This document shows positions 10,928-50,322 of a stretch of 64,000 nucleotides of DNA, one piece after another; position 1 is the first letter of the stretch; every line of letters starts with the position of its first letter. This stretch comes from Psychrobacter pasteurii (GTDB lineage: Bacteria > Pseudomonadota > Gammaproteobacteria > Pseudomonadales > Moraxellaceae). The stretch covers positions 1 through 64,000 of the forward strand of contig NZ_FUGD01000065.1 of the NCBI RefSeq assembly GCF_900162815.1, given 5' to 3'. A program made the position numbers and the translations under genes. The notes beneath the pieces were generated by a model, which was given only the letters and a program-made list of their open reading frames with translations, did not search any database and was not told where the DNA came from.

Positions 10928-11104
10928 AGACAGTCTATATCGGCCATAAAAACCATACTTTTGTTAATAAATGCTGTATAAAACATGCATAGCCTTTAGT
11001 AATGACTGAACACAAAAATATAAAAAAATGTTGAATTTATCACAACATTAGAGTATTTTTTTATTGCAACATCCATGTAATCTAATCTGATAAGGACAGG
11101 GCCT

Positions 11105-12457
11105 ATGAGCATGCAAGACGTCATTGAACGCATTGAAGAACGCTATCCACACCAACCTGAATTCATTCAAGCGGTAAAAGAGGTAGCGAGCACTATTGAC
11201 GTTGTTTATGATCGCGAACCACGCTTCGCAAAGCATAAAGTATTTGAGCGCCTAACCGAGCCTGACCGTATTATTAGCTTTCGAATCAATTGGGAAGATG
11301 ATGAAGGCAATATCCAAATCAACCGTGGTTGGCGTGTCCAATTTAGCAATGCCTTAGGTCCCTACAAGGGCGGCATTCGCTTCCACCCTACTGTAAACGA
11401 GTCTATCCTAAAATTCTTAGGCTTCGAACAAATCTTCAAAAACGCACTAACCGGCCTACCTATGGGCGGCGCAAAAGGCGGTTCCGACTTTGATCCTGAG
11501 GGCAAATCAGACAGCGAAATCCGTCGTTTTTGTTATGCGTTTATGCGTGAACTTTACCGTTACATTGGCCAAGACATGGATGTTCCAGCCGGTGATATCG
11601 GAGTAAGTGGCAAAGAAGTTAGCTACATGTTCGCGATGTATAAAAACCTAACCAATGAATACAATGGGGTGCTAACTGGTAAAGGTGTTGGCTTCGGTGG
11701 TAGTTTATGCCGTTCAGAAGCAACAGGTTATGGAGCAGTTTATTTCTTACAAAATATGCTAAAAGCTCATAACGACCGAATGGAAGGCAAAACGGTATTG
11801 GTATCTGGTGCCGGTAATGTCGCAGTTCACGCGGCAGAAAAAGCGATTGCTTTGGGCGCTAAAGTAATCACTTTGTCAGACTCAAAAGGTACTTTATACG
11901 ATGAGTTTGGCTTCGACCAAGAGAAGCTGGATTGGGTGAAAGAACAAAAAGCCAATCGTCAGCCATTATTTGAGTACCACAGAAAGTTTGGTGGTAGCGG
12001 TGTGTGGTTACCAGGTCAAAAACCTTGGCAATTTGATGGTGACATCGCTATCCCATGTGCTACTCAAAACGAAGTGACTGCCGCTGATGCTGAAGCCATG
12101 TACAATCATGGTATTCGCTATGTAGTTGAAGGCGCTAACATGCCTCTTGATGCCGATGCGATCGACTTTGTTCGTGAAAACAAAATGCGTTATGCGCCAG
12201 GTAAAGCAGCTAACGCTGGTGGCGTGGCAGTATCTGGTTTAGAAATGTCACAAAACTCAGTGCGTCAATACCGTACTTTCCAAGACGTTGATAAGCAGCT
12301 ACAAATTATCATGAGAAACATCCATGATGACGCTGCACAAGCTTCTGAAGAGTATGGCTTTAACCAAGATGGCTGTATTGACTATATGTCAGGTGCTAAC
12401 ATTGCAGGCTATAAGCGTGTGGCCAATGCTTTAGTGGCTTACGGTATCTTGAACTAA
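11105..12457 (+). CDS. gdhA: NADP-specific glutamate dehydrogenase
   Basis: A 450-residue cytoplasmic enzyme that makes glutamate from 2-oxoglutarate, ammonia and NADPH. It tracks E. coli GdhA closely: GPYKGGIRFHP, ILKFLGFEQIFKNALTGLPMGGAKGGSDFDP with the catalytic Lys, DVPAGDIGVSGKEV, the Rossmann motif VSGAGNVAVHAAEKA, and APGKAANAGGVAVSGLEMSQN. Length is normal for the hexameric NADP family. The start follows AAGGACAGGGCC. It is a single-gene unit with its own terminator. The window also holds a damaged NAD-type enzyme, so this may be the main glutamate dehydrogenase of the strain. Confidence 0.97.
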   Translation: MSMQDVIERIEERYPHQPEFIQAVKEVASTIDVVYDREPRFAKHKVFERLTEPDRIISFRINWEDDEGNIQINRGWRVQFSNALGPYKGGIRFHPTVNESILKFLGFEQIFKNALTGLPMGGAKGGSDFDPEGKSDSEIRRFCYAFMRELYRYIGQDMDVPAGDIGVSGKEVSYMFAMYKNLTNEYNGVLTGKGVGFGGSLCRSEATGYGAVYFLQNMLKAHNDRMEGKTVLVSGAGNVAVHAAEKAIALGAKVITLSDSKGTLYDEFGFDQEKLDWVKEQKANRQPLFEYHRKFGGSGVWLPGQKPWQFDGDIAIPCATQNEVTAADAEAMYNHGIRYVVEGANMPLDADAIDFVRENKMRYAPGKAANAGGVAVSGLEMSQNSVRQYRTFQDVDKQLQIIMRNIHDDAAQASEEYGFNQDGCIDYMSGANIAGYKRVANALVAYGILN

Positions 12458-12592: not shown

Positions 12593-13243
12593 TTATTTGA
12601 TAATCGACAAAATCTCTAGCGGTAACTCTATGGTTTCCAAAATAACCTTTAACGGTATGACCCCTACTTCAGCTTGAGTCTTGACCCGTTTGTCTTTCAC
12701 TGAATATATTTTGGCAGCCAACCCTTTATCTAGCTTAACGCTGCTATTAATAGGATTCAAAGGCGCATACATACCGCCTTGTAACTGCAGCTGACAGTTA
12801 TTAAACGAGGTATTAGAGCAAAGTTGGTTTAATAAGGCACGTTGCTGAGTACTCAAAGCGTCTTTTTTGATATTTTGAGTGTGCCCATAACGAAAACTTA
12901 AGGTGATATTGACACTGTTATCTGGATAACGGTTGATTAAAATCGGCTGATCAATCGTTATATCTGTTGCAGACAACTGCGAGACTAAATCGAGGCCCTC
13001 GTTACCCGTGGAAATAAGATAAGAGTAATTGTCTCCCACGAGCACACTGCCCTTTTGTCTGATTCCATTATGGGTGGGATATCCGATATTGCGAATTACT
13101 TCTGATGTCGCTGCCTGTTCTAGAATCTGTGAGGAGTTAACGGCGGGATGATAAATAGAATTACCACAACCCACTAAAACTAGGCTACTTAGACTCAGCC
13201 CTCCACAAAGAGCAATTTTTACGCAGCAACTTTGAGACAGCAT
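12593..13243 (-). CDS. Hypothetical lipoprotein
   Basis: About 216 residues, function not recognised. I chose the ATG at 13243 because CTAGGAG precedes it and it gives a clean lipoprotein signal with lipobox LVGC. The open frame extends upstream to 13348, but that extension overlaps the MgtC-like gene. The mature part has no cysteine-rich or repeat architecture apart from a late pair of cysteines in LCSNTSFNNCQL. It looks mixed alpha/beta. It follows the MgtC-like gene by 22 bases and probably shares its transcript. An envelope role is all that can be inferred. Confidence 0.7.
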   Translation of the reverse strand: MLSQSCCVKIALCGGLSLSSLVLVGCGNSIYHPAVNSSQILEQAATSEVIRNIGYPTHNGIRQKGSVLVGDNYSYLISTGNEGLDLVSQLSATDITIDQPILINRYPDNSVNITLSFRYGHTQNIKKDALSTQQRALLNQLCSNTSFNNCQLQLQGGMYAPLNPINSSVKLDKGLAAKIYSVKDKRVKTQAEVGVIPLKVILETIELPLEILSIIK

Positions 13244-13265
13244 TGGATACACACTCCTAGCAAGC

Positions 13266-13697
13266 TTAACTATTAGATTGAGTCTTAAAAGGCTCAGAGA
13301 ATTGCAGAATAACGAAGCCCACGATAGATAGGATGATGGCAATCTCATAGCGGCCCGTAGCCACAGAGATACCTATGGCTGCCGTGTTCCATAAACTGGC
13401 TGCTGTTGCCGTTCCTTTAGCCCCTTCCTCGCTTTTGAAGATAGCGCCACCGCCAATAAAGCCCATACCGGTGATAATGGCATACATAATCCTGGCTTCA
13501 GCATCGCCTTTATATATATCCATTCCAACTAACATAAAAGCACAGGAAGCAATGGTTACTAGCGGAAAGGTTCTAAGCCCTGCCCCACTATCCTTCATTT
13601 CTCGGTTCAATGCGATGGGCAATGACAGCATAAAAGCAATAAACAGCTTAAATAAGTGATAGCCCATCAATTGAAAATTGATATCTAAATCTAACAT
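13266..13697 (-). CDS. MgtC/SapB family membrane protein
   Basis: A 143-residue inner-membrane protein with about four hydrophobic segments. It carries the MgtC N-terminal signature: RLFIAF-like start, PIALNREMKDSGAGLRTFPLVTIASCAFML, and GMGFIGGGAIFKSEEGAKGTATAASLWNTAAIGI. It has only the transmembrane half and lacks the C-terminal ACT-like domain of virulence-type MgtC, so it belongs to the short form. Members are linked to magnesium stress or F-type ATPase regulation in other bacteria; the role here is unknown. The start follows AAAGGAGGCC. The next gene downstream is a lipoprotein, 22 bases away from its chosen start. Confidence 0.88.
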   Translation of the reverse strand: MLDLDINFQLMGYHLFKLFIAFMLSLPIALNREMKDSGAGLRTFPLVTIASCAFMLVGMDIYKGDAEARIMYAIITGMGFIGGGAIFKSEEGAKGTATAASLWNTAAIGISVATGRYEIAIILSIVGFVILQFSEPFKTQSNS

Positions 13698-13887
13698 ATC
13701 CGGCCTCCTTTCCTGATCTTGTTAATACCCTTATTGAACAAGATAGTAACGAAAATCAGGGGGTTAAACCGTTTAGAGTCCGTTAACTTTTAGCTTATTT
13801 GGTATGGATTTTGCTTTCTGGCCTTTGTAATTATCGTAAATTCTGTTTTATAAGATGAGTTTTGCAAAGTGGTACTGAGTTTGATTC

Positions 13888-46094: not shown

Positions 46095-49000
46095 TTATTC
46101 AGAAATCAGTTTATTAATCTCGCTAATCATAACCGATAACGCAGATAACCCAACCTCAGTAGCATCAAGTTTAGACATTTGCTCTGCCATATCTTCGATA
46201 GACTGCTTGTGTACTTGCTGCCACCGTTCAAGTGCTTCAGCTGGTTTCTCTTGTGACAACAGCTTATTCATCATCTGACGCAGACTTCGTGTCAGCTCAT
46301 TAAACAAGGCATAACGAGCGCGTCTATCCCAATGATTTTGCTGTGGTAAATGCTCTACATTTAGCATCAACCAATCAATATGCAAGTTCTGATACACCTC
46401 AAAATACAGCGTTGCAATCTCGTCTACCGGACGATTGTATTGCTCTGCTAATAGTGCTGTATCGAGCGCATCAATGGCATATGGCAATATCGCAAAGCTT
46501 TGCGCTTGATCCTTTTGTATTCCCAAATCAGTTAAATCTGACACATCTTCTTCAAGATGCGCTTCAAACTGCTGGGCAATGATGCCTTGTGACTGGGTTA
46601 ACTCAGAAACACCTTGTTTAAATCTATCAATGGTTGGCGCTACTTGCAAGTCGCTACCAAAGGCGTTGACTAGCCATACAATACCTTGCTCAAGCACTGA
46701 GCGGATTCTGATTTCAAGCTGTAACAGCGTTACCGCATCAACCTTATTATCAAGCGACTCAAGCGTTTTCCAGTTCTCTGTCACACTAAAGATATCTCTG
46801 ACAATCGCATAAGCACGGATTAGAGTCGCCACGCCTTGATTGGTCTCTTCAAATAAGCGGAAGATGGCCTCAATACCAAGACGGTTGACCACGCTATTGG
46901 TCAGATACGTACTGATGATTTCGCGGTGTAAGCGGTGACGTGTCATTTCATCAAAGAAGCGACCTGCCAGCTCATCAGGGAAATATTTACGCAGCTCATT
47001 GGTAAAGTACGGATCATCTGGTAAATCTGACTCTAGTAGCTGCTCATATACCCACATTTTGCCATAAGCAAGTATCACTGATAGCTCAGGGCGCGTCATG
47101 CCTGTACCCGCTTTCATACGCTGCTCAATGACGTCATTGCTAGGCAAGAACTCAATCGCTCTATCAAGACGACCTTGCGCCTCAAGATAATCGATAATAC
47201 GTTTATGGTCAGTTAAGTTCTCAGCGCCATCTAAATGACTCAGCTCAAGCGCTTGCGGCTGCAAGTAATTTTGACGTAATACCAGATGAGCCACTTCATC
47301 AGTCATGCTCTTAAGCAGGTCATTACGCTGCTTGATGGTCATATCGCCCTGCTCGACCACTTTGCCTAGCAAGATTTTGATGTTCACTTCATGGTCAGAG
47401 CAGTTCACGCCAGCTGAGTTATCAATCGCATCGGTGTATAAATGACCGCCCTCATGATCAGGACCACCAGATAGAGCGTATTCAATACGGCCCTGCTGTG
47501 TACACCCAAGGTTACCGCCCTCACCGATTACACGAGAGCGAATGTCTTCACCGTTCACTCGCACTGCATCGTTAGCACGGTCGCCCACATCCGCATCACT
47601 CTCTGCACGGCTCTTGACATAAGTCCCAATACCACCGTTCCAAATCAAATCAACTGGCGCTGTTAATAATCGATTGATCAGCTCATTTGGCGTTAGGTTA
47701 TCCTCGGAAATATCAAACGCTTCTTTCATCTCATCGCTAATGGCAATCGACTTATCTGAGCGTGAGAACACACCGCCACCTTGGCTAATCAATGACTTGT
47801 CATAATCATCCCAAGTTGAGCGTGGTAAATTAAACAAACGCTCGCGTTCTTCATAAGACGCTTTGGTGTCCGGGTTTGGATCAATAAAGATATGCAGGTG
47901 GTTAAAGGCCTCTTGCAGTTTAATATGCTTGGATAACAACATACCGTTGCCAAACACATCGCCGCTCATATCGCCAATACCAACGACAGTAAAGTCATCT
48001 TTATTTTGGATATCTAAGCCGAGCATTCTAAAGTGACGTTTGACTGATTCCCATGCACCGCGAGCCGTGATACCCATCGCTTTATGGTCATAACCGACTG
48101 AACCACCTGACGCAAAGGCATCATCAAGCCAAAATCCGTACTCTTTAGCCACGCCATTGGCGATGTCAGAGAAGCTGGCTGTTCCTTTATCGGCTGCAAC
48201 AACCAAGTATGGGTCATCTTCATCATGACGCACGGTATTATCAGGGTGTACGACATTACCATCGACCAAGTTGTCGGTCACATCAAGCATACCGCGTAGG
48301 AATGTTTGATAACATTCAATGCCCTCTTTTTGAAATACTTCTCGGCCATCGGCAGGGGTTTTCTGCTTAACGATAAAGCCGCCCTTTGACCCGACTGGAA
48401 CGATTACTGCATTTTTCACCATTTGCGCTTTAACCAAACCTAATACCTCGGTACGGAAATCTTCCATACGATCTGACCAACGCAAACCGCCACGCGCGAC
48501 TTTACCACCACGTAAGTGAATGGCCTCAACGCGCGGTGAGTAAACAAAAATCTCAAACATTGGTTTTGGTTTAGGCAGGTTTGGAATCTCACTTGCCGCA
48601 AATTTAAATGACAGACGATCTTTACGATTGCCATCACTATCACGCTGATAGAAGTTAGTACGTAACATGGCGTTGATTAAATCTAAGTACCAACGCAGTA
48701 TTCTGTCTTCATCTAAACTGTCTACTTTAGCTAGTGCTGCTTTTAATTGCTCTTGGCAGGCTTTGGTTTTGTCTGCTCGCGCATTGTCGCTGTATTCAGG
48801 ATTCATACGCGCATCAAACAAGTCAGCAATCATCACAGCGATATCGCCATTTTTAACCAAAGTCTGCTGAATGTATTGACTTGAAAACGGCGCTTTAGCT
48901 TGCAGGATATAACGCATTAATGCACGTAACACGACCACTTCAAAGGTGTCTAGACGAGTAGCTAATACCAGCTCATTGAGCGAATCACTCTCTACATGCC

Positions 49001-50012
49001 CTGCCCAAATTTGAGCCAAACTGTCTTCAAACTGCTCACGAACTACCGCTAAATCAATGGTTTTCTCATTGCGTAGCGTTAGCTCATATTCTTGTAGCCA
49101 CATTGGCTGTTCTGGTACATCAAACTCATAGGTTTGAGCCGATACCACGAGCACGCCGAAGTTTTCTAAGATAGGTAGAATATTGGACAAGATAGTTGGC
49201 TGATTAAGACCGTACAATTTTAGATGTAGCTGATTGCTGTCATCACCGGTTGATTGATACAGCTTCCAAATCATTGGATTGCTGTCACTTAAACTCGCCA
49301 AGCGCTTGGTATCCGCCACGCCTGTGCGCACATCAAAGTGCTCTTTATACGCCGCAGGAATCGTATTCAAGTAACGCTTGAATATGCTATTGGCCTTTTG
49401 CTCACCCAGCGTCTCTAGCATGACTTGCTGATACTGATCACTCCAATCTTCCACCAGACCATTGAGCTCATCTTCAAGTTCGGTCAAATCAACCGAGTTA
49501 ATCTCACCCGGCTCAGTGCGCACATGCACATGAACTCTGGCGTGATACGATTCATCAAATTCGGTAGTAAATCCTGAAGACGTACCATTGAATGCATCGA
49601 CTAACGCCTTTTGAACTTTCACACGCATACTGGTGTTGAATTTATCGCGAGGGATATAAACCAAGCACGACACAAAACGCTGATAATGATCTAAGCGGGT
49701 AAATAGGCGCAGACGTTTTTTGTCTTTAAGCTGCGCAATACCAGCAACGATAGGATACAGCTCATCGATACCGGCTTGGAATAAGCCATCACGTGGCAGG
49801 CTATTAATGATGTGCATATACTTGTGATAGTTGTAGCCATTTTTAGGAAAGTCAGCCTGCTCCATGATTTTGTTGGCTTTTTCACGCAGTAGAGGAATCT
49901 GCTCAACGCTCAGCTGATATGCCTGTGAGGTTAGCAAGCCGATAAAGCGATACTCACCGATTAGATGACCAGATTCATCATATTTATGGATACCTAAGAA
50001 ATCCATATACAC
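46095..50012 (-). CDS. gdhB: NAD-specific glutamate dehydrogenase, large type, N-terminally disrupted
   Basis: The 1305-residue remainder of a GDH_N-type 180-kDa glutamate dehydrogenase, which normally is about 1600 residues. The catalytic domain is present: GGKVARGGLRWSDRMEDFRTEVLGLVKAQMVKNAVIVPVGSKGGFIVK (pieces near residues 500-545), DMSGDVFGNGML, and VIGEGGNLGCTQQGRIEYALSGG. The upstream 112-codon frame at 49984-50322 encodes the normal N-terminus, but is out of frame with it. The homology also suggests a gap of about 180-200 residues between the two pieces. The first codon of this frame is GTG at 50012, without a clear ribosome site. Function may be lost or much altered. Confidence 0.85.
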   Translation of the reverse strand: MYMDFLGIHKYDESGHLIGEYRFIGLLTSQAYQLSVEQIPLLREKANKIMEQADFPKNGYNYHKYMHIINSLPRDGLFQAGIDELYPIVAGIAQLKDKKRLRLFTRLDHYQRFVSCLVYIPRDKFNTSMRVKVQKALVDAFNGTSSGFTTEFDESYHARVHVHVRTEPGEINSVDLTELEDELNGLVEDWSDQYQQVMLETLGEQKANSIFKRYLNTIPAAYKEHFDVRTGVADTKRLASLSDSNPMIWKLYQSTGDDSNQLHLKLYGLNQPTILSNILPILENFGVLVVSAQTYEFDVPEQPMWLQEYELTLRNEKTIDLAVVREQFEDSLAQIWAGHVESDSLNELVLATRLDTFEVVVLRALMRYILQAKAPFSSQYIQQTLVKNGDIAVMIADLFDARMNPEYSDNARADKTKACQEQLKAALAKVDSLDEDRILRWYLDLINAMLRTNFYQRDSDGNRKDRLSFKFAASEIPNLPKPKPMFEIFVYSPRVEAIHLRGGKVARGGLRWSDRMEDFRTEVLGLVKAQMVKNAVIVPVGSKGGFIVKQKTPADGREVFQKEGIECYQTFLRGMLDVTDNLVDGNVVHPDNTVRHDEDDPYLVVAADKGTASFSDIANGVAKEYGFWLDDAFASGGSVGYDHKAMGITARGAWESVKRHFRMLGLDIQNKDDFTVVGIGDMSGDVFGNGMLLSKHIKLQEAFNHLHIFIDPNPDTKASYEERERLFNLPRSTWDDYDKSLISQGGGVFSRSDKSIAISDEMKEAFDISEDNLTPNELINRLLTAPVDLIWNGGIGTYVKSRAESDADVGDRANDAVRVNGEDIRSRVIGEGGNLGCTQQGRIEYALSGGPDHEGGHLYTDAIDNSAGVNCSDHEVNIKILLGKVVEQGDMTIKQRNDLLKSMTDEVAHLVLRQNYLQPQALELSHLDGAENLTDHKRIIDYLEAQGRLDRAIEFLPSNDVIEQRMKAGTGMTRPELSVILAYGKMWVYEQLLESDLPDDPYFTNELRKYFPDELAGRFFDEMTRHRLHREIISTYLTNSVVNRLGIEAIFRLFEETNQGVATLIRAYAIVRDIFSVTENWKTLESLDNKVDAVTLLQLEIRIRSVLEQGIVWLVNAFGSDLQVAPTIDRFKQGVSELTQSQGIIAQQFEAHLEEDVSDLTDLGIQKDQAQSFAILPYAIDALDTALLAEQYNRPVDEIATLYFEVYQNLHIDWLMLNVEHLPQQNHWDRRARYALFNELTRSLRQMMNKLLSQEKPAEALERWQQVHKQSIEDMAEQMSKLDATEVGLSALSVMISEINKLISE

Positions 50013-50322
50013 GTCGGTTGAACGCTACCAATTGCAGTACGCTACGGCCACTGTGGAAATGATGCTCTTCAACGCTCGGGTTAAACAAACGTAGTGCTGG
50101 CTCGTTGTCTTGATAAGATTTTAATAATACAAAATGATGCAGTGCCATGCCTGCTAGGTCGGTATCTGACTCTAGCCCAGCCAAGCGCCCTGCGACGTTG
50201 CGGTAATAGACTGAAATAAAATCTTCCAGCAATGCCTGGTCTTTACTGATATAGCCACTGGCAATATTGGTGATATTTTTAAGACGTTCAGCGCTTAATA
50301 TAAGCGTGTTTTTCATATTCAT
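49984..50322 (-). pseudogene. N-terminal fragment of the NAD-glutamate dehydrogenase gene
   Basis: A 112-codon frame with about 99 residues resembling the GDH N-terminus, with LLEDFISVYYRNVAGRL and ALRLFNPSVEEHHFHSGRSVLQLV, then 13 out-of-frame residues and a stop. The downstream frame resumes at RSTDVYMDFLGIHKYDESG (50024 leftwards). The junction lies around 50024-50030. The family sequence expected after LQLV, including the PFLVDS-like region, is missing. This fits a deletion whose length is not a multiple of three. An assembly gap is an alternative. Confidence 0.75.

Follow-up and report, generated by a model that had tools for sequence, protein, structure and literature searches.

What becomes of a gene for a large NAD-dependent glutamate dehydrogenase (GDH) that appears to have lost an internal piece, and is its function gone, altered or merely obscured by the assembly? 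This question is raised by positions 46095-50322 (minus strand) of the window, by which we mean the whole stretch of 64,000 nucleotides of Psychrobacter pasteurii that was analysed. Judged by its sequence, the gene is a standard L-GDH180, a NAD-glutamate dehydrogenase of the gdhB type with predicted NAD-GDH activity.

The span is divided over two open frames. The first (49984-50322, minus strand, 112 codons) encodes the first half of ACT*1, after which a handful of codons are read out of frame up to a TAA stop. Its likely start is the ATG at 50316, which is common to the relatives (MKNT start) and is preceded by the ribosome-binding-site-like sequence AAGGGAATGA; with this start the N-terminal fragment is likely to be about 110 aa long. 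The second frame (46095-50012, minus strand, 1305 codons) runs from HM1 through the C-terminal domain and has an in-frame TAG stop just upstream. The overlap between the two amounts to 29 bases, the small piece ending 26 bases inside the remainder. The first-pass annotation had described fragment and remainder as lying in different frames, and both are indeed present as such; the start of the fragment, which it put at 50322, probably has to be moved.

The break had been attributed to an internal, frame-breaking deletion. Alignment to full-length Psychrobacter GDH bears the attribution out, with homology on both sides of the junction and a single clean gap. The closest intact copy, locus L152 of the two-contig genome G069, is a single frame of 1634 aa that is 92% identical over 1066 core columns and carries a complete ACT1. 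In the core tree the window gene is sister to L152, followed by the copy of G071 (a single frame of 1625 aa). The window DNA matches L152 well up to ...GCGTTCAACCG and resumes at GTGTATATGGATTT..., which puts the junction at 50010-50018 (minus strand); about 650 bases are absent, with a net shift that is not a multiple of three. The missing segment is present in all full-length copies of the genus. Between the flanks of the gap the intact Psychrobacter copies have 199-226 residues (219 in L152), so that the loss proposed earlier is borne out and its size slightly larger than the 180-200 residues then given. The sequence RSTDVYMDFLGI that had been taken for family sequence does not hold: its 'RSTD' was read from junction bases, and relatives read H-R-[P/S/A]-V-Y-M-D-F-L, or close variants of it, at the right edge. 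For the same reason we discarded a 12-base direct repeat, CGTTCAACCGAC, as a feature of both deletion ends, since the right edge of the relatives reads HR[P/S/A]V and not RSTDV. No long direct repeat is demonstrable at the break; the junction possibly involved a few bases of microhomology at most. With the corresponding segment of the P. pygoscelis copy (the nearest named match, 77% identity) as query, we found no second copy of the missing segment in the genome, and no stray piece of it on another contig either. In other genomes the same protein family is matched over its whole length.

The domain content reflects the same loss. Pfam matches in the small frame are confined to positions 1-66 of the 144 of ACT1, and the large frame contains HM1, ACT2, HM2, ACT3, HM3, the catalytic domain and the C-terminal domain, in that order. 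The two domains that mark the enzymatic part of an L-GDH180 are matched very strongly in the 1305-aa frame (Bac_GDH_CD, PF05088, E = 7.7e-267; GDH_C, PF21074, E = 5.6e-94). The complete series ACT*1-PAS-HM1-ACT*2-HM2-ACT*3-HM3 in one frame is not found in the window gene, and instead of a single frame of about 1600 codons, as in the intact relatives (about 1607-1661 aa), there are 112 + 1305 codons. In the mycobacterial L-GDH180 the catalytic and C-terminal domains are preceded by an N-terminal segment with three ACT-like domains, three helical motifs and a PAS-type domain (PMC8175468). By this published architecture the gene lacks, besides the second half of ACT*1, presumably also the PAS-type region; we infer the latter by position because Pfam matches nothing between ACT*1 and HM1, even in intact copies.

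The remainder itself is undecayed. Its 1305 codons are free of stops, and pairwise dN/dS against L152 is about 0.02 at a dS of about 2.4, which is near saturation. Because saturated synonymous sites make branch-wise dN/dS unreliable, private amino-acid changes were used instead. None of the 216 columns that are invariant among 92 other large GDHs is changed, and within the genus 4 changes fall at 597 otherwise invariant columns, an ordinary count. Columns that are at least 95% conserved across the genus copies make up 64% of the protein and hold 7 of 52 private changes in the window lineage (5 of 28 in L152); as neutral drift would place 64% there, few or no changes have accumulated unconstrained. 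The total number of private changes is 52-53 in the window lineage versus 28 in the sister L152, against 64 versus 67 in four neighbouring control genes taken together (Fisher p about 0.02), and this 1.7-1.9-fold excess, which lies mostly at variable sites, hints at slightly relaxed constraint. The first domains after the break have 12 private changes versus 2 in the sister (p = 0.12). Many of the private changes (46098-50012, minus strand) introduce acidic residues (A to E, Q to E, N to D), which may reflect adaptation of the lineage to its environment. Of the usual marks of a pseudogene the disrupted frame is present; relaxed selection as such and further lesions were not found. This leaves three possibilities: a very recent break, a core that remains in use, or an error of assembly.

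We lean towards the first of these, and consider it probable that a single recent, out-of-frame deletion of about 650 bases in a standard L-GDH180 has abolished or greatly reduced the full-length function. Ribosomes that initiate at the native start would then stop after some 110 codons, and the remainder would be translated poorly or not at all, a good ribosome-binding site being absent. Full-length NAD-GDH activity would be lost or greatly reduced, and glutamate catabolism would be carried by the small GDH (gdhA) or by transamination plus aspartase. A recent deletion would explain the lack of decay in the remainder; indeed, given that lack, the event must have been very recent. With neighbouring genes that look intact and no N in the window, the assembly is not generally noisy, which helps this reading. 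Moreover, the genus tolerates a loss of L-GDH, four of its near-complete genomes having no such gene beside purD (see below). The presence of gdhA and of an aspartase-like gene, and the slight excess of private changes, point the same way. A loss of NAD-GDH function, which the first-pass annotation had suggested as one possibility beside an alteration, is likely, but has to be set against a catalytic core that is whole and undecayed, and against naturally shorter forms, with even less of the N-terminus, that are kept in six other Psychrobacter genomes.

These last observations would also fit a remainder that is translated and yields an active, de-regulated NAD-GDH lacking PAS and a full ACT*1. 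GTG 50012 and ATG 50006 are the starts closest to the break. They lie about 20-26 bases before the end of the first frame, which makes coupled re-initiation conceivable. So is a +1 frameshift in the overlap that could join the frames. In frame 1 the overlap is read as CTT AGG and in frame 2 as TTA GGT, an arrangement familiar from +1 frameshift sites of yeast. The full conservation of the core is in line with such a functional truncation, as are the private changes in the first domains after the break and the maintenance of forms without ACT*1, PAS, HM1 and ACT*2, with native ribosome-binding site and start, in the six genomes. ACT*1-2 and PAS of the mycobacterial enzyme are distal, flexible parts, cryo-EM having resolved ACT*3, HM3 and the catalytic and C-terminal domains (PMC8175468). 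However, the established short forms are in frame and have a normal start, whereas no start with a good Shine-Dalgarno sequence lies near the break in the window (GTG 50012, -2.9; ATG 50006, -0.2; native ATG 50316, -5.3 kcal/mol), and the long overlap is unfavourable to re-initiation. With no good ribosome-binding site ahead of the remainder, we favour a recent lesion by which the full-length enzyme is abolished or strongly reduced, and regard translation into an active enzyme as unlikely, if still a serious alternative.

Rather improbable as well is an artefact in which flanking reads or contigs were misjoined and the gene of the strain is intact. The assembly is a draft in 229 contigs (2.94 Mb), noisy assemblies do cause false splits in other genomes of the genus, and an undecayed remainder is just what an intact gene would show. 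However, the break is located inside a contig of 86.6 kb and in a window without N, there is no long repeat at which the sequence could have collapsed, and a search of the other contigs did not find the missing segment. In addition, the slight excess of private changes would be unexpected. We are more doubtful still that the window gene is one recent step of a trend already fixed elsewhere in the genus, in which the sensory N-terminus is cut repeatedly, the core is kept and the regulated L-GDH180 becomes a de-regulated enzyme like L-GDH115, produced in this case by way of re-initiation or frameshifting. A long-decaying, old pseudogene can be dismissed as highly improbable, as nothing but the broken frame itself speaks for it, whereas the remainder is free of stops despite near-saturated synonymous sites, leaves all 216 invariant columns unchanged and has private changes that avoid conserved sites.

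The preferred reading of a recent deletion gains perspective from the variation of L-GDH across the genus. Matches to the full-length protein were obtained in 100 of 105 Psychrobacter genomes. Six of the 105 (G117, G011, G024, G116, G086 and G046; loci L141-L146) have a short L-GDH of about 1115 aa, which matches from residue about 515 on (frames of 1124-1141 aa). The short forms share the locus of the long form, with sbcC, one conserved gene, GDH and purD. Five of them, which belong to a single clade, have a ribosome-binding site of the AAAAGGAT type and an ATG-CCA-AAC or similar start, as do the long forms of their relatives (MPNS...). The HM2 region lies within about 40 residues of the start, and G046 is similar in layout. 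In the two forms that were scanned (G011 and G046), ACT3, HM3 and the catalytic and C-terminal domains are kept, and ACT1, HM1 and ACT2 have no Pfam match. The short forms therefore look like in-frame internal deletions of ACT*1-PAS-HM1-ACT*2 that spared promoter, ribosome-binding site and start. In a quick tree the clade of five is nested within the long forms (SH-aLRT 100) and G046 branches apart, as a long branch at the genus base, so that the N-terminus was likely lost twice within the genus, the placement of G046 being uncertain. Splits of the GDH gene in G093 (Psychrobacter sp. WY6, L147) and G072 (JCM 18901, L148) were considered as parallels and rejected, because the neighbouring genes are split too; these breaks are probably sequencing errors.

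No L-GDH was found in four near-complete genomes among the 105 (G061, G022, G065 and G092), where an unrelated operon takes its place beside purD (L166-L169). The window has ABC-transporter-like ATPase genes to which the first gene of this operon is about 40% identical. A short second L-GDH with frames of 1175-1206 aa is found beside a full-length copy in G185, G207, G244 and G158, which belong to another family of the order (L170-L172 in G185, G244 and G158).

The metabolic context offers possible substitutes for NAD-GDH. The gdhA-like gene for a small glutamate dehydrogenase of the 50 kDa class (11081-12454, plus strand; PF02812 and PF00208) is intact, as had been noted from the start, with NADP as its putative cofactor. 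Elsewhere in the genome there is an aspartase-like gene with a score of 667 bits, just below the curated cut-off of 681. Both genes could replace NAD-GDH in the breakdown of glutamate. We dropped the idea that the presence of gdhA is linked to a damaged or short L-GDH, as most genomes have it (88 of 105, including all six with short forms and three of the four near-complete ones without L-GDH). Near gdhA, two frames overlap on the minus strand, one of the MgtC family (13269-13721) and one of 259 codons without Pfam match (12596-13372); this stretch (12596-13721) is possibly a split gene or non-coding.

For the strain, a defect or change in growth on amino acids of the glutamate family is predicted. 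Taken alone the window gene is an ordinary broken gene; of somewhat greater, if mild, interest is that the sensor end has been lost repeatedly. The sensory domains of L-GDH180 have been proposed to transmit metabolic signals (PMC8175468), and long and short enzymes could be compared in their regulation by amino acids to probe this. The genus provides a natural test set for these poorly understood domains, with variants that are full, without ACT*1-PAS-HM1-ACT*2, frame-broken or absent.

Among known systems, the window gene is closest to the 180-kDa L-GDH180 class (the mycobacterial mL-GDH180 and the gdhB type of Pseudomonas and Psychrobacter), with which it shares the domain order and the strongly matching catalytic and C-terminal domains; the sbcC-adjoining locus is common to it and the intact Psychrobacter genes. 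Unlike these, it has only the first half of ACT*1 and no PAS-type region, and its frame is broken. The 115-kDa L-GDH115 class, which includes the enzyme of Nocardia farcinica (PMC8175468), has subunits of about 1000-1120 aa with a short N-terminus in a single normal frame. The 1305-codon remainder differs from it in keeping HM1 and ACT*2 and in having no normal start. Our literature search, which was thin on subscription papers, returned nothing specific on short L-GDHs of gammaproteobacteria beyond that same study. The six short Psychrobacter forms (HM2 region-ACT*3-HM3-CD-CTD) do agree with L-GDH115 in size and frame, having a shorter N-terminus on the same catalytic core. Going by the tree, however, they would be local trimmings of L-GDH180 and not descendants of other L-GDH115. 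The short second copies of the other family likewise begin shortly before HM2, but these coexist with a full-length copy, whereas in Psychrobacter the short form replaces it.
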